Positions 15,173 to 63,800 of a stretch of DNA of 64,000 nucleotides are shown here, piece after piece (the first letter of the stretch is position 1; each line of letters starts with the position of its first letter). The notes beneath the pieces were generated by a model, which did not search any database, was not told the DNA's origin, and worked only from the letters and a program-made list of their open reading frames with translations. This DNA comes from Lampris incognitus (Eukaryota; Chordata; Actinopteri; Lampriformes; Lampridae): positions 98,914,845 through 98,978,844 of the forward strand of contig NC_079213.1 of assembly GCF_029633865.1 (NCBI RefSeq), read 5' to 3'. The position numbers were made by a program, and so were the translations under genes.

Positions 15173-18100
15173 TGCTAAAGTATGTAGGTTTAGAGAGTGG
15201 TATTATGGGGTAAGATGGTCAGTATAGTATAGCATAGTTTGGTATAGTATAATATGGTATAGTATAGCATAGTTTGGTATAGTTTAGTATAGTATGGTAT
15301 AAAAGACTGTGGTGCCTGTCCCTACAGTGGTATAGGTCTGGCACTTTGCAAACGCCTCCTCGCAGAAGAACCTGGTCTACAGCTCTGTCTAGCCTGTAGG
15401 AACCTGGGTAGGGCTCAAGCTGCTCGAGCCGCGCTCCTGACCTCTCACCCCAAAGCCCAGGTGGCCTTACTACAGCTGGACACAAGCAACATTACCTCAG
15501 TCCTCAATGCTGCCCATGAGGTCAAACTCAGGTGGGAGAGACACATGACTGTTGTGGACAACAACATATGATTCACAGTGCTGAAGTCAAACACACACAT
15601 TCAAACAAATGTATAATCAGATATACAGAACATCTTATTTATTGTTAATGCAAGACTTGCATTATCTCAAAGATTCAGCTGGCGCTGCCAAACATAAGTG
15701 CATTCGGGTGCATATACGTTGAATAAAGTATCCCCAGCTGTTGTTACCTACAGGTATAACCGGCTGGGCTACCTCTACCTCAATGCGGGCATCATGCCGA
15801 ATCCAGAGTTTGATGTGAAAGCTTTTTTCAAAGGCCTCTTTTCCAGGTAAAGTTCTGACTTCAAGCAAAGCCTCGAAACATCTTTGAACATTAATCAAGA
15901 AAAATCTAGATATAAATCTGTCTAATAATCTGGACATGTATCTAGTATTCTAGATAAACATCTATCTGGTAATCTAGAAAAATCTAGATATCCATATCTC
16001 TTAAAGCTTAATTTCTACCCTTTTTTCCATCTGGACCATGCTACCTTTTTAGACTTCAGTTTAGGTTTCCATAATAAATTAATAAACAAATAATTTACTA
16101 CAGTAAAGTCATCACCATGTTTGCCACTGGGGATGGGATCCTGACACAGAAGGACAACTCGACAGCAGATGGACTGCAAGAGGTCTTCGCTACCAATCTC
16201 TTCGGTCACTTCCTTCTTGTGAGTGATTTTGACATTTGTGTGCCCTCAAATGTTTATCTATTACATGACTTGATGTAAGGTCATGATTATATCAGGAATG
16301 CTTACAGTTAGAAATAATCAGCGATGAACTGTTAGGTAAGATGTCCACATAAAATCCACCTGCATTCTGTAAGTGTTCGATAAAGACTTTAGGCAGTGTT
16401 ATTACATTTCGCTGATTGCTCTTGTTGGGGGATACTGGATACATCCATCACTTAGCAACAGTGCTCATTAAAAATTAAAGCCTTGATGTCTGTGACCATG
16501 CTTTGTCCTCTGTTAGGCTTAAGGGCATTGCTGACAGCTTACATCAGCCCCATCTTGCATCCTGTTTACCTCTAGCGTTTACAGATGAATAATGACTATA
16601 GCCACATGCACTGACATGTTTTATTACCCAAAGGTTGTATCTGTTTAGATTTTTCCTATATTCGCAGTGTGGATTTTTTTTTGGGGGGGGGCTTGATATA
16701 CTTTATTAATCCCTGTGGGGAAATCCATACTCTGCATTTAACCCATCCTAGATGTGTAGCTAGGCACAGTGGGCAGCTGCTGTGCAGCACCCGGGGACCA
16801 ACTCCAGTTTGTCTTGCCATGCCTTGGTCAGGAGCACAGACAGGAATTAACCCTAACATGCATGTCTTTCTGATGGTGGGGGAAACCGGAGCACCCGGAG
16901 AAAACCCACCGCAGACACAGGGAGAACATGCAAACTTCACACAGAGGACGACCTTGGATGAGCTCCAAGGTTGGACAACCCTGAGGTTCAAACCCAGGAC
17001 TTTTTTGCTGTGATGTGAAGCGACAACGCTAACCACTGGGCCACCGTGCCACACAAAAGCTTACAGCACCTAGCGTTCGTTCCCAACCCCAATCCCAATC
17101 AGGCGGTCTCCCATCCAAGTATTAACCAGACCCGACCCTGCTTAGCTTCCGAGATCGGACGGGATTGGGCGTTATCAGGGTTGTGTGGCTGTAAACCAAA
17201 TTGCAGGATCATCCGTGGCTTTCCTCACCAGCCCACGTCTTGCTCGGACACTTAGTTCTGAGGGACGGCCTGTCCTACAAAGTGTCTGAGTGATGTGATA
17301 CAGATTCCACTTTCTGACAAAAGGAGGGGAAGTTAAGCAGAATTAGTCTTCAAGCTGTCTTAGAGTGAAAAAGCATATTTGCGTCAATTCTTGGATTCCA
17401 CGGGTAGAGGACTGGAACAAAAATCCCACTCATAAATATTTAAATACCTTTTCTTCTAGTACCACAATTTAGAACATTTAGATGCCGACTTGTTGCTTGC
17501 TTAAGAGAATATTTTAGAAATCCACATTTTCACATCCATGAAAAGAGTTGAATTAACATAGCTGCCTGTTTTGATGTTATCCTTATGTTACCCTTTGTTG
17601 TCCCATGTGTACCAGGTCAGGGAGCTGATGCCAGTCCTGTGTCAGGCTGGCCAAACCTCCCAGGTGATCTGGACCTCATCTAGCAATGCTCACCGGTCAG
17701 CATTCGACCTTGAGGACATGCAGCATCGGAAAGGCACCCAACCTTACAGCTCCTCCAAATATGCCTCTGACTTGCTCAGCCTTGCACTCAACACACACTT
17801 CAACAAACAGGTCAGGTTCTTAACACATCTCACTACAGGGCTAATTTTAAATACACAATTCAACACATACTTGATATCGCGCCAACATTAAGCCAGGTTT
17901 CTGACTTAATGTTGGTGACTTCTGGCTTAATGTTGGTGACTCTGCCCCCCTGATAGGACTCCGGCCCCCCTCACCCCCCAATTTCTCCTTTTTCAACCGT
18001 CCCAGGTTATCTGGTAAAGGGTGTGTGTGGTCAGGGGTGGGGGGGACTTTCAGTTGTTTATAATGAAAACTTCAGTTGCTCACTCATTTCATCTTTTGAG

Positions 18101-18266: not shown

Positions 18267-21200
18267 TTGGCTGCTGCCATTAGGGGGCGCCACAGCAAAT
18301 CAACCATTTCCATTACTTCTTGTCCACAGCATCTTCCTCTGTCACGCCAGCCACCTACATGTTCCCCCTCACCACATTCATAAACCTCGTCTTTGACCTT
18401 CTTCTTTTCCTCTTTCCTGGCAGCTCCATATTCAGCATCCTTCTCCCAATATACCCAGCATCTCTCCTCCACATATGTCCAAACCATCTCAATCTTGCCT
18501 CTCTTGCTTTGTCTCCAAACCGTCCAACCTGAGCTGTCCCTCTAATATACTCATTCCTAATCCTGTCCTTCGTCACTCCCAATGAAAATCTTATCATCTT
18601 CAACTCTGCCACCTCCAGCTCTGCCTCCTGTCTTTTCGTCAGTGCCACCATCTCCAAACCATACAACATAGCTGGTCTCACAACCATCTTGTAAACCTTC
18701 CCTTTAGCTCTTGCTGGTACCTTTCTGTCGCAAATCACTCCTGACACTCTTCTCCCCCCACTCCACCCTGCCTGCACTCTCTTCTTCACCTCTCTTCCAC
18801 ACTGCCTGTTACTTTGAACAGTTGATGCCAAGTATTTCAACTCATATGCCTTCGTCACCTCTACTCCTTGCATCCTCACCATTCTGCTGTCCTCCCTCTA
18901 GTTCACGCATAGGTATTCTGTGTTGCTCCAACTGACTTTCATTCCTCTTCTCTCCAGTGCATACCTCCACCTTTCCAGGCTCTCCTCAACCTGCACCCTA
19001 CTCTCGCTACACATCACAATGTCATCCGCAAACATCGTAGTCCATGGAGACTCCTGCCTGATCACATCTGTCAACCTGTCCATCACCACTGCAAACAAGA
19101 AAGGGCTCAGTGCCCACCTCCACCTTGAATCCATCTGTCATTCCAACCGCACACCTCACCACTGTCACACTGCCCTCATACATATCCTGCACCACTCCTA
19201 CATACTTCTCTGCCACTCCCAACTTCCTCATAAATACCACACCTCCTCTCTTGGCACCGTGTCATATGCTTTCTCTAAATCCACAAAGACACAATGCAAC
19301 TCCTTCTGACCTTCTCTACATCAACATTCTCAAAGCAAACATCGTATTTGTTGTGGTCTTTTGTGGCATGAAACCATATTGCTGCTTGCTAATCGTCACC
19401 TCTCCTCTTAACATTGCTTCCACTACTCTTTCCCATGTCTTCATGCTGTGGCTGATCAACTTTATACCTCTGTAGTTGCTACAGTTCTGCACATCGCCCT
19501 TGTTCTTGAAAATCGGTACCAGTATGCTTCTTCTCCACTCCTCGGGCATCCTCTCACTTTCCAATATTGTGTTAAACAATCTAGTTAAAAACTCCACTGC
19601 CGTCTCTCCTTAACACCTCCATGCCTCCACAGGTATGTCATCAGGACCAGTTGCCTTTCTACTCTTCATCCTCTTCATAGCTGACTTCACTTCTTCCTTG
19701 CTAATCCACAACACTTCCTGATTCACTATCCCCACACCATCCAACCTTATCTCTCTCTCATTTTCTTCATTCATTAGCCCCTCAAAGTACTCCTTCCACC
19801 TTCTCAATACACTCTCCTTACTTGTCAGCACATATCTGTCTCTATCCTTGATCACTTTTACCTGACAGCATTCTTCTCCATATTGGGAGAAGGATGCTGA
19901 AGATGGAGCTGCCAGGCAAGAGGAAAAGAGGAAGGCCAAAGAGGAGTCAAAGAAGGTTGAATCAGTTCATCTGGACACAACGTTTATTGACAGAAATGTT
20001 TCATCACTCATCTAAGTGACTTCTTCAGTCTAAACGGACTGCAGGTATCCCCACCCTTATAAACAATAAACACTGTGTCCAGATGAACTGATTTAGCTTT
20101 CTTTGATTTTCGTACCTGGATTATTGATGTTGCATAAAGCCAAAGAGGACGTTTATGAATGTGCTGAGGGAGGACATGCAGGTGGCCGGCATGACAAAGG
20201 AAGATGCAGAGGACAGGAAGAAATGGAAACAGATGATCTGCTGTGGCAAACCCTAACGGGAGCAGCCAAAAGTAGTAGTAGTAGTAATAGAGGTTTTAAT
20301 CAAATTAATACAATCCATGACTGCATGCATGACCTCAAACGCTGGATGGCCCAGAACTTCCCTTAGCTAAATACTGATAAGGCTGCGGTACTTATCACTG
20401 GCGCTGACACAGTTTATCTTAATACTTCAAAACATCTAAGCTCTCTGTCTCAAAATACACTCACTGGCCACTTTATTAGGTACACCTTGCTAGTACCAGG
20501 TTGGACCCCCTTTTGCCTTCAGAACTGCCTTAATCCTTCGTGGCATAGATTCAACAAGGTACTGGAAACATTCCTCAGAGAGTTTGGTCCATATTGACAT
20601 GATAGCATCACGCAGTTGCTGCAGATTTGTCGGCTGCACATCCATGATGCGAATCTCCCGGTCCACCACATCCCAAAGGTGCTCTATTGGATTGAGATCT
20701 GGTGACTGTGGAGGCCATTTGAGTACAGTGAACTCATTGTCATGTTCAAGAAACCAGTCTGAGATGATTCGAGCTTTATGACATGGCGCATTATCCTGCT
20801 GGAAGTAGCCATCAGAAGATGGGAACACTGTGGTCATAAAGGGATGGACATGGTCAGCAACAATACTCAGGTAGGCTGTGGCGTTGACACGATGCTCAAT
20901 TGGTACTAAGGGGCCCAAAGTGTGCCAAGAAAATATCCCCCACACCATTACACCACCACCACCACCAGCCTGAACCGTTGATACAAGGCAGGATGGATCC
21001 ATGCTTTCATGTTGTTGACGCCAAATTCTGACCCTACCATCCGAATGTCGCAGCAGAAATCGAGACTCATCAGACCAGGCAACGTTTTGCCAATCTTCTA
21101 TTGTCCAATTTTGGTGAGCCTGTGCGAATTGTAGCCTCAGTTTCCTGTTCTTAGCTGACAGGAGTGGCACCCGGTGTGGTCTTCTGCTGCTGTAGCCCAT

Positions 21201-24200
21201 CTGCCTCAAGGTTCGACGTGTTGTGCGTTCAGAGATGCTCTTCTGCATACCTCGGTTGTAATGAGTGGTTATTTGAGTTACTGTTGCCTTTCTGTCAGCT
21301 CGAACCAGTCTGGCCATTCTCCTCTGACCTCTGGCATCAACAAGGCATTTTCGCCCACAGAACTGCCGCTCACTGGATATTTTCTCTTTTTCGGACCATT
21401 CTCTGTAAACCCTAGAGATGGTTGTGCGTGAAAATCCCAGTAGATCAGCAGTTTCTGAAATACTCAGACCAGCCCGTCTGGCACCAACAACCATGCCACG
21501 TTCAAAGTCACTTAAATCAGCTTTCTTCCCCATTCTGATGCTCGGTTTGAACTGCAGCAGATCGTCTTGACCATGTCTACATGCCTAAATGCATTGAGTT
21601 GCTGCCATGTGATTGGCTGATTAGAAATTTGCGTTAATGAGCAGTTGGACAGGTGTGCCTAATAAAGTGGCCGGTGAGTGTATATTCCAGTACTGCAAAA
21701 ATGTTGGTGTCATCTTTGATAACCACCTCAGCTTGAACAAGCATGTTAACTCAGTTATCCGGTCGTGTTTTCTGCAGCTCAGGAGACTCTCCAAGATCAG
21801 TTCAATTTTAGTCAGTAGAAATTTAGATTCTCGTACATGCTTTTATTTCCTCTTGTTTGGACTACTGTAACTCCCTCTACACACATCTGAGTCAATAGAG
21901 TCTACATAAATTACAGCTTGTCTAAAATGCAGCAGCCAGACTCCTCACCAAAAAAAAAACCAACCCAAAAAAAAAAGAGCACATTACTCTTATTTTAGCT
22001 TCACTTCATTGGCTCCCAGTAAATTTTAGAATTGAATTTAAGATAGCATTATTCATTTTTAGAGCCTTCTCTGGATTCGCACCCAAGTACTTTTCAGATC
22101 CTCTAACACCATAAGTGCCCAGTCGCAACCTGAGGTCCTCAACCAAGGCTCTGCTAGCTGTTCCACAATCCAGGCTTAGGACCAAGGGTGACCGGGCTTC
22201 TTCTGTTTGGACCCTTACACTCTGGAACAACCTCCCCGAGGAGATCAGACTGGAGAGATCCTTATCCCCTTTTAAATCCCTCTTGGAAACATACTTTTAT
22301 AAGTGTGCTTATTCAGGATTTGTTGTCTGAATTCATCATTTGTTTATCTTGTTTGTATTATTGATTATTCATTCATTCATTATCCAAACCGTTTATCCTT
22401 ACTCAGGGTTGTGGGATGCTGGAGCCTATCCCAGCAGTCATTGGGCAGCAGGCCCAAATTTATTAAATTATTTTATATTATTATTATTATTATTTTATTA
22501 TATTATTTTCGAATTTATTGATTATTGATTTTTTAATTATTTTACATTGTTATATTGTACTTATTTTATTTTTTTCCAAATATGCAGCTCCTCTTGCTTT
22601 TATATTTCCTTCCCAGTGTTGTTTAACTTTTAAACTGGTTTTAAATTGTTTTTTTTATCATTGTTTGTATCCCATATTTTTCTATTTTGTCTTGTAAAGC
22701 ACTTTGTGTCTTTTTTTTTAAAAAGTGCTACCTACAACATGGACATATTTTTACCACACAGTAAGTTGCTGACTGTGATCTGAAGGCCATTGCATTATGG
22801 TTGTGTTTTCAAGGGCATGTACTCATCAGTGATCTGTCCGGGTTTCGTGATGACCAACCTGACATATGGTATCCTGCCCTCCTTGCCAGGCTTCATCTGG
22901 ACCTTGTTTATGCCCATCTTTTGGCTTGTGAGTTCACCTCCAAAAATGTTTTATCCAAGCGAGGTTTTTATCAGTAAGTCAGTGTGCCGTTTCAGTCCAT
23001 TTTGTCTGTGTCATTCACAGAAAGTTGAATCCGTTCATCTGGACACAACATTTATTGACAGATGCATTTCATCACTCATATAAGTGACCTCTTCAGCCTC
23101 AACTGACTGCAGGTATCCCCACCCTTATAAACAATACAGTGGCATAACGAGTGAAACCAACGATCAGTTTCATATGTAAATTTGCTTGACCTTTAACTAG
23201 AGTTACAATGGCCATGTATGCTATTCACAGAAGATTGGGGAATGGTTGCAATCACAGCATTGTAAGATGGCGACAGATGTACTCTTAGCCCCCCCCGGCC
23301 ATGACTTTTACATCGGGGAAACCAAACAGATGCTGGCCAAGAGGATGGCACAACACAGAAGAGCTAGCACATCAGGCCAGGACACTGCAGTCTACACCAT
23401 CTACAGGCCGGTGGCCACTCTTTCAAGGATGAGGATGTGCACATGCTTGATAGGGAGGAATGCTGGTTTGAACGGGGGATCAAAGAGGCCATCTTTGTGA
23501 AGAGAGAACGGCCATCCCTGAACTGAGGGGGGGGGCGTAGCACATGGGAGGATCACGCTATTCCTCCCAGTCGCCCCACCCCGAACAGATTCCCCAACCG
23601 ACCAGAGGAGGCGCTAGTGCAGCGACTACGACACATACACACATCCGGCTTCCCACCCGCAGACACGGCCAATTGTGTCTGTAGGGATGCCTGGCCAGAG
23701 GTAACACGGGGATTTGAACCGCCGATCCCTGTGTTGGTAGGCAACAGAATAGACAGCCACGCCACCCGGACGCCCAAGGTTGGGAATACCTGCACTCAGT
23801 TGAGACTGAAGAGGTCACTTAGATGAGTGATGAAATGTTTCTCTCAATAAACGCTGTGTCCAGATGAACTGATTCAACTTCCTGTGATTTCCTTACCTGG
23901 ATTATTGAGCATGCATAAAGACACGTCTTTGTCATAGTTTGAAATCTCACTGTATACCTATGCGAACTCAGCAATTTACCTGGACCAATTCATCACGCAC
24001 ACTAAAATAACTTACATCCTATATTGGGTGAAACAGGTCTACAACATTTGTTTTTAGCTGAAATTATCTTTTTTCACCATTTCACAGATCAGAATTTGTA
24101 CTAATACTTTTACCCTGACACCTTATAACGGAGCTGAGGCCTTGGTAGGTATAACCACCTTGACAGCTCCCAAAGAATCACTGAGCATCTCAAAATCGGA

Positions 24201-60864: not shown

Positions 60865-63800
60865 TACCGTTCAAAAGTTTGGGATCACCCAAACAATTTT
60901 GTGTTTTCCATGAAAAGTCACACTTATTCACCACCATATGTTGTGAAATGAATAGAAAATAGAGTCAAGACATTGACAAGGTTAGAAATAATGATTTGTA
61001 TTTGAAATAAGATTTTTTTTACATCAAACTTTGCTTTCGTCAAAGAATCCTCCATTTGCAGCAATTACAGCATTGCAGACCTTTGGCATTCTAGCTGTTA
61101 ATTTGTTGAGGTAATCTGGAGAAATTGCACCCCACGCTTCCAGAAGCAGCTCCCACAAGTTGGATTGGTTGGATGGGCACTTCTTTGAGCAGATTGAGTT
61201 TCTGGAGCATCACATTTGTGGGGTCAATTAAACGCTCAAAATGGCCAGAAAAAGAGAACTTTCATCTGAAACTCGACAGTCTATTCTTGTTCTTAGAAAT
61301 GAAGGCTATTCCATGCGAGAAATTGCTAAGAAATTGAAGATTTCCTACACCGGTGTGTACTACTCCCTTCAGAGGACAGCACAAACAGGCTCTAACCAGA
61401 GTAGAAAAAGAAGTGGGAGGCCGCGTTGCACAACTGAGCAAGAAGATAAGTACATTAGAGTCTCTAGTTTGAGAAACAGACGCCTCACAGGTCCCCAACT
61501 GGCATCTTCATTAAATAGTACCTGTTAGAGCCTGTTTGTGCTGTCCTCTGAAGGGAGTAGTACACACCGGTGTAGGAAATCTTCAATTTCTTAGCAATTT
61601 CTCGCATGGAATAGCCTTCATTTCTAAGAACAAGAATAGACTGTCGAGTTTCAGATGAAAGTTCTCTTTTTCTGGCCATTTTGAGCATTTAATTGACCCC
61701 ACAAATGTGATGCTCCAGAAACTCAATCTGCTCAAAGAAGTGCCCATCCAACCAATCCAACTTGTGGGAGCTGCTTCTGGAAGCGTGGGGTGCAATTTCT
61801 CCAGATTACCTCAACAAATTAACAGCTAGAATGCCAAAGGTCTGCAATGCTGTAATTGCTGCAAATGGAGGATTCTTTGACGAAAGCAAAGTTTGATGTA
61901 AAAAAAATCTTATTTCAAATACAAATCATTATTTCTAACCTTGTCAATGTCTTGACTCTATTTTCTATTCATTTCACAACATATGGTGGTGAATAAGTGT
62001 GACTTTTCATGGAAAACACGAAATTGTTTGGGTGATCCCAAACTTTTGAACGGTAGTGTATATATATATATATAAACGTGTTACTGTGTAATACGAAACT
62101 ACTTACCAGAGTAGCGGACTTTGGAGTCTTTGGTGTCTTTTATTTTGATGGTATAATTGCTGATACATCCCCCGCGTTGTCCATTTGGAATCTCCGTCCA
62201 GGTCACTGTCAGCACATTTCCCTCTACCATTTCTTGGACAGATGGACCACTCACTGGAGCTGCGAACCACAAGCAGAACCAAGGAATAACAGTCAAATCG
62301 GGTGAATGTTAAAAAGAACCATGTTCAAACAATGTCACGGGAACTCCATCACTACTTTTTATTTTTACCTTTTGCTTTGCTAAATTTTCAATGCCTTGGT
62401 CTGTTACTATTAAATCAAAATACACTCAAATAAATCAATATCAAATTAATTCCCCCATCAAAGTCATTTACCTGACTCCAAAGTGCTGACACTGCTGAAT
62501 CTGGCCCTGCCGATTGAGTTCTTATAGAGGGCATATACTGCTCCCTCATAGCAGTGAAACGGCTTCACGTCTGTGGAGGAGATATGAAGAAGAGGCATAA
62601 GATGAGGGTGATATACATCAAAAAGGTGTTTTTAGAGAATGTAGTGTAAAGAGTCACAGAAAGCTGAATAAGTTTATCTGCACACAACGTTTATTGAGAG
62701 AGAAACATTTCATCATTCATCTGTGACTTCTTCAGTCTCAACTGACTGCAGGTATCCCCCACTCTTATAAACAGCACAGTGGCATAATGACTGAAAATGA
62801 GCCCTCTTCACATAGAGGGAACGAACCATCCCTGAATCGGGGGCTAAGAGTACATCTGTCGTCATCTTACAATGCTGTGATTGCAACCATTCCCAAATCT
62901 TCTGTGAATAGTACACATGGCCATTCTAACTGTAGTTAATACTCATGGCAATTTGCATATCAATAAAAGTGTCCAGATGAACTGATTCACCTGTGATTTT
63001 CTTACCTGGATTATTGAGCATGCATAAAGATATAGTGTAGAGCAATTACAGATGGGAAAATCGCAAAAGAATGTGGCTATGGGGGCGCCTGGGTAGCGCA
63101 GCGGGCTATTCCGTTCGAATCCCCGTGTTGCCTCTGGCTTGGTCGGGCGTTCCTACGGACACAATTGGCCGTGTCTGTGGGTGGGAAGCCGGATATGGGT
63201 TTGTGTCCTGGTTACTGCTCTAGCACCTCCTCTGCTCGGTCGGGGCACCTGTTCAGGGGGAACAGCGTGATCCTCCCACGCGCTACATCCCCTTGGTGAA
63301 AGTCCTCACTGTCAGGTGAAGAGAAGCAACTGGTGGCTCCACGTGTATTAGAGGAGGCATGTGGTAGTCTGCAGCCCTCCCCAGATCAGCAGAGGAGGTG
63401 GAGCAGCAACCGGAACAGCTCAGAAGAGTGGGGTAATTGGCCGGATACAATTGGCAAGAAACGGGGATAACCCCCCCCCCCCAAAAAAAGAGAAGAATGT
63501 GGCTATTATTGACGAGTCTTGATTGTGTTCATGCGCTGTGCCATGGATGCATGCAAGTCATTCTGATACTCATGACAAACATTACTTTTGATGCTACAAA
63601 CTCATTCTTTATGTTTTTTGGCATTACAAATTATTAACTGTTAAGCCAGCAGAGACAGACAGTCATATAAATCTTCATGATTTACATAACAGGATCTTAC
63701 TAAGAACATAAAACTGCCATTTACATTTGGTTCACTGGCAACCTAAAAGTACCTGAATCAAATATGAATCTCTCAGCAGGGTATGGCTGTGACTCACCTA

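Follow-up and report, generated by a model that had tools for sequence, protein, structure and literature searches.

Are the hammerhead-like motifs at the ends of Penelope-like elements (PLEs) in a fish genome genuine ribozyme cores, and in what state have they survived? The question is raised by a stretch of 64,000 nucleotides (the window) of Lampris incognitus (NCBI RefSeq assembly GCF_029633865.1, contig NC_079213.1, positions 98,914,845 to 98,978,844 of the forward strand), in which a preliminary description, made from the sequence alone, had recognised hammerhead catalytic cores at both ends of Penelope-like copies. The analysis presented here shows that a two-stem hammerhead core is conserved across PLE families. 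The window motifs are the ends of old PLE copies, and they represent, with high probability, a decayed minimal type I hammerhead ribozyme residing in the PLE pseudo-long terminal repeat (pLTR). They are fossil PLE hammerheads of a known kind, minimal and lacking stem III.

Hammerhead-type motifs of the window

Four motifs composed of CUGAAGA, a stem II and GAAA are present where the preliminary description had placed them, with CTGAAGA starting at 20028 (-), 23096 (-), 23806 (+) and 62735 (-). A rule-based scan of both strands (CTGANGA, a stem of at least 4 bp, GAAA) retrieved these four motifs only, and the same rule applied to ten dinucleotide-simulated windows gave two matches in one of them and none in the other nine. 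Scores in the following list come from R1, a covariance model with approximate E-values, built from 18 rows of five other families of the same genome (F2-F6, see below), the window family (F1) being excluded.

19989..20034, minus strand: hammerhead-type motif copy 1 (R1 35.4 bits, E 4.1e-8; sequence-only model 16.8 bits)
20034-20029, 20028-20022 and 20021, minus strand: 5' side of stem I, CUGAAGA and extra A of copy 1
20020-20015/20008-20003 and 20002-19999, minus strand: stem II and GAAA of copy 1
19995/19994 and 19994-19989, minus strand: predicted cut and 3' side of stem I of copy 1
23057..23102, minus strand: hammerhead-type motif copy 2, decayed (core from the rule scan; partial 8.8-bit match with filters off)
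23800..23845, plus strand: hammerhead-type motif copy 3 (R1 31.9 bits, E 4.6e-7)
23806-23812, 23813 and 23814-23819/23826-23831, plus strand: CUGAAGA, extra G and stem II of copy 3
23832-23835 and 23839/23840, plus strand: GAAA and predicted cut of copy 3
62698..62741, minus strand: hammerhead-type motif copy 4, degraded (R1 21.1 bits, E 9.4e-4)

Copies 1, 3 and 4 were the top three R1 matches in the window, and all further matches had E-values of at least 0.05; copy 2 was unlisted under default filters. When the R1 alignment was used without its structure, copy 1 fell to 16.8 bits and copy 3 to 12.9 bits, with copies 2 and 4 unlisted. The interpretation of the motifs as hammerhead cores is thus supported both by a model that had seen no member of the window family, which ranked three of the four copies first, and by the cross-family covariation described below.

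The ends of the elements carrying these motifs were located by blastn with a 127-bp probe (23786-23912):

19947..20048, minus strand: inverted tail-less pLTR end of PLE copy A
20064..20127, plus strand: shortened direct pLTR end with tail of PLE copy A, starting close to the predicted cut
23015..23116, minus strand: inverted tail-less 5' pLTR of PLE copy B
23297..23497, plus strand: GIY-YIG coding-region remnant of PLE copy B (PF01541, E 0.013, below the Pfam cut-off)
23786..23912, plus strand: direct 3' pLTR with tail of PLE copy B
62646..62755, minus strand: inverted pLTR of PLE copy C
62960..63021, plus strand: shortened direct pLTR end of PLE copy C

The Penelope-like identity put forward earlier is borne out by the GIY-YIG remains in copy B together with longer GIY-YIG frames in F1 and F2 relatives outside the window; a coding region with reverse transcriptase (RT) and GIY-YIG is seen in relatives, the window itself holding the GIY-YIG remnant only. 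Family F1 is abundant, with 4,281 exact matches to a 24-nt piece of its end in the 1.48-Gb genome (none for the reversed control). A RAG1 match of 1,254 bits places this genome among the jawed vertebrates; that the match is split over two separate frames, together with the repeat content, points to a fish. The window copies appear dead: nothing of their coding region is left but a broken GIY-YIG frame, the motif of copy 2 bears a core mutation (U16.1 to C), and stem II is broken in copy 4.

A two-stem core shared by six families

Further families were found in the same genome by patterns that fixed the core letters and left stem II free. Together with the window family they are as follows:

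F1 (window family): stem II GUCACU/AGUGAU
F2: CUGA(G/U)GA-A-GCCUCU-UGGAUG-AGAGGC-GAAACGUC
F3: CUGAUGA-A-GGCCUG-UAGCAG-UAGGCC-GAAACGUU, with stem I CAUGCU/AGCAUG
F4: GCYAUC family
F5 and F6: contig-end families, stem II GGUA/UACC and GCAAC/GUUGC, respectively

The five families besides F1 share its 41-46-nt design (CUGANGA, extra nucleotide, stem II, GAAACGU, H17, stem I) with differing stem sequences. All six have ACGU, H17 and stem I in that order, and in all six a single extra nucleotide separates A9 from stem II, which corrects the core layout given earlier. A viroid hammerhead core with an extra nucleotide has been published, reportedly with the insertion at the same position. The nucleotide at N7 differs among the families (A, G, U, C), a position at which hammerheads tolerate variation. 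The prevailing H17 is U, A or C depending on the family, with G in three of 80 F1 copies, although H was imposed by the pattern in two of the searches. The stem III hairpin CGUUU/AAACG, to which the preliminary description had pointed, did not survive this comparison: it is missing in other families, and what is kept is ACGU and H17 followed directly by stem I, a register that suits all of them.

Pattern searches returned more matches than their reversed controls. One of those that returned F2 gave 132 against none, and a pattern with free stem II gave 73 (51 distinct) against 26. In 30 of the 51 distinct strings a stem II of at least 4 bp forms at the register with one extra nucleotide, compared with none at registers shifted by one in either direction and a mean of 1.1 for shuffled inserts; in this test two stem II positions were barred from the letters of families 1 and 2. 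A short pattern yielded 799 matches (reversed control 120), of which 633 can be accounted for as exact F5 or F6 copies, the remaining 166 being mostly chance.

Covariation, by which the structure is shown, was measured on 40 ungapped 46-nt genomic rows (16 F1, 11 F2, 6 F3 and 7 F4). The two-stem structure scored 0.620, compared with 0.239 (sd 0.018) for shuffles and at most 0.205 for slid controls; 78.8% of cells are paired, 121 cells show two-sided changes, and none of 500 shuffles reached the observed values for paired cells, two-sided cells or covariation score. Kinship among the rows means that shuffle counts are not probabilities, while the slid control retains relatedness. The 40 rows are a hand choice from 57, and because stem I indels occur among the 17 dropped, the choice works in favour of the structure. 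The score nevertheless stayed well above its controls, at 0.55 for the full set of 57 selected rows (shuffle maximum 0.29, slide maximum 0.186) and at 0.399 for the full set of 135 distinct rows (shuffle maximum 0.216, slide maximum 0.156).

In stem II, 90% of cells are paired and five of the six pairs show two-sided, compensatory changes. Stem I is paired in 67.5% of cells, its inner three pairs forming in 39, 39 and 37 of the 40 rows, again with two-sided changes, and it adjoins the core after H17, as in type I closure. Compensation in stem I is also visible within F3, where CAUGCU/AGCAUG is replaced by CCUGCU/AGCAGG in one copy (L174). Within F1, pair 5-46 shifts from G-C to U-G (50 and 11 of 78 distinct copies, respectively, with one G-U and 16 unpaired). 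Two other candidates were discarded. Reading F1 in another register, with UUGAGA/UCUCAA as a stem I of 6 bp, leaves pairs 7-46 and 5-48 broken in the G46/U5 subfamily, and the TC-deletion copies, considered as a covarying subfamily, proved on fetching 20 of them to be single copies with slippage of either subfamily.

It had been noted that the sequence outside the core varies more than the core, and this holds in 72 distinct F1 copies not selected by a core pattern (loci L031-L072 were excluded since the core pattern had chosen them). The 11 core columns are mutated in 3.8% of cases, other non-CpG columns in 8.5%, stem II in 2.4%, stem I in 10.4% and CpG columns in 30%, the flank rate being somewhat inflated by copies shortened at the flanks. 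Label permutation gave 0.0055 for the core and 5e-5 for core plus stem II. Fourteen columns have a minor letter of at least 10%; they lie in stem I, the extra nucleotide, H17, CpG sites and the flank, with none in the 11 core columns or stem II. The core CUGANGA...GAAA is present in F1, a family found without a core pattern, and N7 differs from family to family.

The best-preserved hammerhead is that of F3 (L174-L184, L197), with 6 bp in both stem I and stem II; some copies (L183, L184) are arranged head to head. Its tandem 2.67-kb units contain a frame that by eye resembles an RT, and they match GIY-YIG weakly (E 0.035, below the cut-off). Separately, an F1 subfamily (L073, L074, L076, L079-L081, L097, L098) carries a direct repeat of ~36 bp (CACTGTATTGTTTATAAGGGTGGGG...CTGCAGT) in the pLTR upstream of the motif.

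Predicted cleavage and rival readings

The order revealed by covariation, i.e. stem I (~3-6 bp), CUGANGA, extra nucleotide, stem II (4-6 bp), GAAA, CGU and H17, predicts a cut directly after H17. An intramolecular stem III would have no room in such a fold, and the palindrome ACGU could pair only between two copies. By analogy with other PLEs, the active form would probably be a dimer joined via ACGU or a molecule aided by protein. PLE hammerheads are described as minimal and devoid of helix III (PMC6155905, PMC7761336), and as possibly working as dimers (PMC6155905, PMC7761336, PMC6466107). The hammerhead of the Anolis Poseidon element PAc cleaved in vitro only with PLE protein, and the C3G or G8C substitutions abolished cleavage (PMC11167929). 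In living elements, tandem or head-to-head transcripts might be trimmed to unit length at the H17 site. For the window copies, which look like fossils, the claim of such a mechanism is a modest one.

Several results weigh against the ribozyme interpretation. A match to the public type I covariance model, named in the preliminary description as a check whose failure would count as refutation, did not appear: Rfam reported no hammerhead in the window, whether the gathering score or an E-value limit of 10 was applied, none in the piece 19940-20140, and none, even at E up to 10, in 12 related loci of four families. By the gathering cut-off the motifs are not members of RF00163 (Hammerhead_1), the type I family with the same core letters and topology. 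The miss is probably due to the minimal form of published PLE hammerheads. Core letters in F2-F6 were set by the search patterns, so their conservation there is not independent evidence, whereas the stems are; core conservation within F1 alone is weak evidence because dead copies decay neutrally. Two of the counts made on the 40 rows were also less favourable, since pairs with a two-sided change exceeded shuffles mildly (11 versus 9.0, reached by 7 of 500) and further standard pair types did not exceed them (27 versus 26.1, reached by 209 of 500), and the outer pairs of stem I are mostly unpaired in F1, F2 and F4, being strong in F3 only.

To these must be added the lack of a clear trace of cleavage. 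No clear footprint was seen at insertion ends, the 5' break points of 56 shortened copies (100 listed of 193 matches, 44 indel copies removed) being nearly flat. The counts at positions 10-20 are 6, 6, 7, 5, 3, 6, 9, 3, 1, 5 and 5, with the predicted product starting at 15; positions 15-16 hold 15 break points, compared with ~10 expected if flat. Among 81 anchors (80 regions, from 100 listed of 4,281 matches) there is only a loose cluster of nine at 15-21. A cleavage footprint was accordingly rejected: two window copies start near the cut, yet the genome-wide break points are nearly flat. In Anolis, RNA-seq is reported to contain no reads starting or ending at the predicted cut, and catalytic mutants of the PAc ribozyme left RNA insertion in vitro unchanged (both PMC11167929). 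Taken with our nearly flat break points, these data weaken a simple role in integration.

The same observations favour a conserved PLE RNA stem-loop, serving protein binding, packaging or RT priming, that resembles a hammerhead and was never catalytic: Rfam is silent, stem III is missing, the footprint is not clear, and insertion in vitro was indifferent to the PAc mutations. Such a stem-loop would have to account for the exact linkage of two covarying stems through CUGANGA and GAAA, for variation precisely at N7, for a family H17 that is U, A or C, and for the cleavage of the PAc hammerhead in the presence of protein (PMC11167929), and we regard it as improbable. A chance motif within a repeat, where homology among copies makes an accidental CUGAAGA/GAAA seem conserved, is a hardly credible explanation. 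The four window copies do belong to one family and amount to one observation, and the 166 residual short-pattern matches, compared with 120 in the reversed control, are mostly accidental; but different stem sequences stay complementary in one register, the reversed controls are lower (0 versus 132; 26 versus 73), and the cross-family covariation refutes the idea.

The preliminary description had also drawn attention to the mirror-image arrangement at 23026-23912, by which the transcript of either strand would start or end in a ribozyme fold. The inverted arrangement is present, and the ends are inverted relative to each other in all three window copies; a purposeful both-strand design, distinct from a by-product of PLE insertion, is very unlikely, and the arrangement is ordinary PLE anatomy. 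Copy B has one motif per strand, and the inverted ends of copy A (19946-20130, minus strand) are predicted by folding to form a long hairpin with the ribozyme motif in its loop, as such a design might have it. Copies A and C, however, retain the motif at one end only, and a both-strand transcript would hold the ribozyme together with its antisense. PLEs of rotifers are described as having an inverted pLTR in head-to-head position, its length reduced by that of the optional tail, and this structure is likewise typical of PLEs from flies and fish (PMC3846280). The same was found in 17 of 30 loci (3.1 kb fetched for each; chosen by full-length match, with the tail-bearing copy centred; L001 is the window copy itself): the second pLTR is in every case inverted and placed 5' of the one with the tail, and 13 of 18 second copies stop at probe positions 102-106, i.e. 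without the tail. Direct tandem arrays occur as well, such as five F1 anchors ~2.4 kb apart (C1:9635973-9645737; C numbers denote contigs) and a pair of F3 motifs at a spacing of 2,665 bp.

Other repeats accompany the PLE copies of the window. Beside copy A, a sequence bounded by inverted TCACTGGCCACTTTATTAGG-type ends (~20455-21681) looks like a DNA transposon remnant, and inside copy B there is (~23597-23778) a tRNA-like GGGGATTTGAACC box, perhaps an insertion of a short interspersed element (SINE), both read by eye. A 5S rRNA-like match at 17058-17196 (-), scoring 62 bits with an insert longer than the model, is perhaps a 5S-derived SINE.

Arrays near contig ends and known systems

Outside the window, families F5 and F6 form arrays near contig ends, and these are related, far younger copies with the same fold. 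Among the matches listed, 172 places fall on large contigs, and for 167 of these, in one polarity throughout, an end is no more than 100 kb away. F6 has 255 exact motif copies in the genome (reversed control 0). Of 100 listed copies, 72 are on chromosome-scale contigs. In 67 of these the distance to an end does not exceed 100 kb; the 67 are spread over 20 contig ends, and all read inward from the end. On C13, C21 and C22 the places are at most 35 kb from the left end. The exceptions are three copies at C2:245-261 kb (opposite polarity), a single copy at C2:7,988,309 and another on C3, where the distance to the end is 101.8 kb. The remaining 28 listed copies, without exception on the minus strand, occupy four small contigs. 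For F5, 378 exact motif copies were counted, and each of the 100 listed is at most 100 kb away from one of five contig ends, in the same polarity (C1:1-57400 (L194), the starts of C5 and C6, and the ends of C3 and C6).

At the start of C3 (C3:1-7000, L196), the F6 unit measures 5,956 bp, and the comparable stretches of neighbouring units are identical (799/799 and 246/246). It contains an open stretch of 851 codons (ORF1) with a weak GDSL-like match (E 0.0036, below the cut-off) and one of 908 codons (ORF2; first ATG at codon 193) matching RVT_1 below the cut-off (7e-4) and GIY-YIG above it (1.9e-5). Its 3' untranslated region (UTR) contains AACCCTAACCCAACCCTAATCC, the CCCTAA stretch of which lies ~590 bp upstream of the motif of the next unit. 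F5 is a 1.15-kb tandem unit with a hammerhead motif in each copy and no open stretch of 120 codons; two neighbours are identical over 1,149 bp.

It is conceivable, though somewhat less than probable, that a vertebrate keeps, beside telomerase (a Telomerase_RBD match shows that it is present in the genome), hammerhead-bearing PLEs, coding (5.9 kb) and non-coding (1.15 kb), that add themselves to chromosome ends, the window relics being their dispersed dead relatives. The CCCUAA stretch of the 3' UTR could anneal to a TTAGGG overhang, the RT of the element would then extend the end, and the hammerhead would cut tandem contig-end transcripts into units. The arrays may instead have been built by unequal exchange. 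Inspection of the last bases at ten contig ends revealed TTAGGG tracts at three (the right ends of C3, C6 and C9) and not at the other seven, so several arrays may merely be cut off by the assembly. A literature search of titles and abstract openings, covering part of the papers found and no subscription papers, met with no description of PLE arrays at vertebrate chromosome ends, which falls short of proving that none exists. Should the arrays be built by the elements, a vertebrate would possess a ribozyme-bearing, telomerase-related retroelement growing at telomeres beside its telomerase gene, and the link between PLEs, hammerheads and telomeres would become testable in fish. In the window, then, the motifs are genuine and belong to a class already known, and it is the families at contig ends that merit further attention.

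More generally, the fixed extra nucleotide after A9, together with ACGU-H17 in the absence of stem III, makes recognisable a PLE hammerhead that Rfam leaves unreported here, in six families of one genome, with strong stem covariation in the four in which it was tested. The minimal type I hammerheads of PLEs (Cervera and De la Pena 2014; Lunse, Weinberg and Breaker 2017) share with ours the pLTR location and stems I and II, and likewise have no real stem III and a palindrome suited to dimers. The extra nucleotide is fixed in every family here, the hammerheads of these two studies having been compared as described in PMC6155905, PMC7761336 and PMC6466107. Poseidon PAc of Anolis carolinensis is also a GIY-YIG PLE with a stem I plus stem II hammerhead near the junction of pLTR and ORF (PMC11167929); its ribozyme has been tested experimentally, whereas the window copies are fossils without open frames.

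For the F6 contig-end family, the nearest kind described is that of the terminons of bdelloid rotifers (PMC6431247). Both have a PLE RT, a hammerhead, a GDSL-like ORF (weak and below the cut-off in F6), tandem arrays at ends and reverse-complement telomeric repeats. Terminon telomeric repeats directly follow the hammerhead, whereas the CCCTAA of F6 does not adjoin the motif; with GIY-YIG present and a unit of 5956 bp, F6 does not belong to the terminons. Whereas terminons are endonuclease-deficient and reach 40 kb (PMC6431247), F6 is an element of ~5.9 kb, with GIY-YIG in frame with the RT, residing in a vertebrate.

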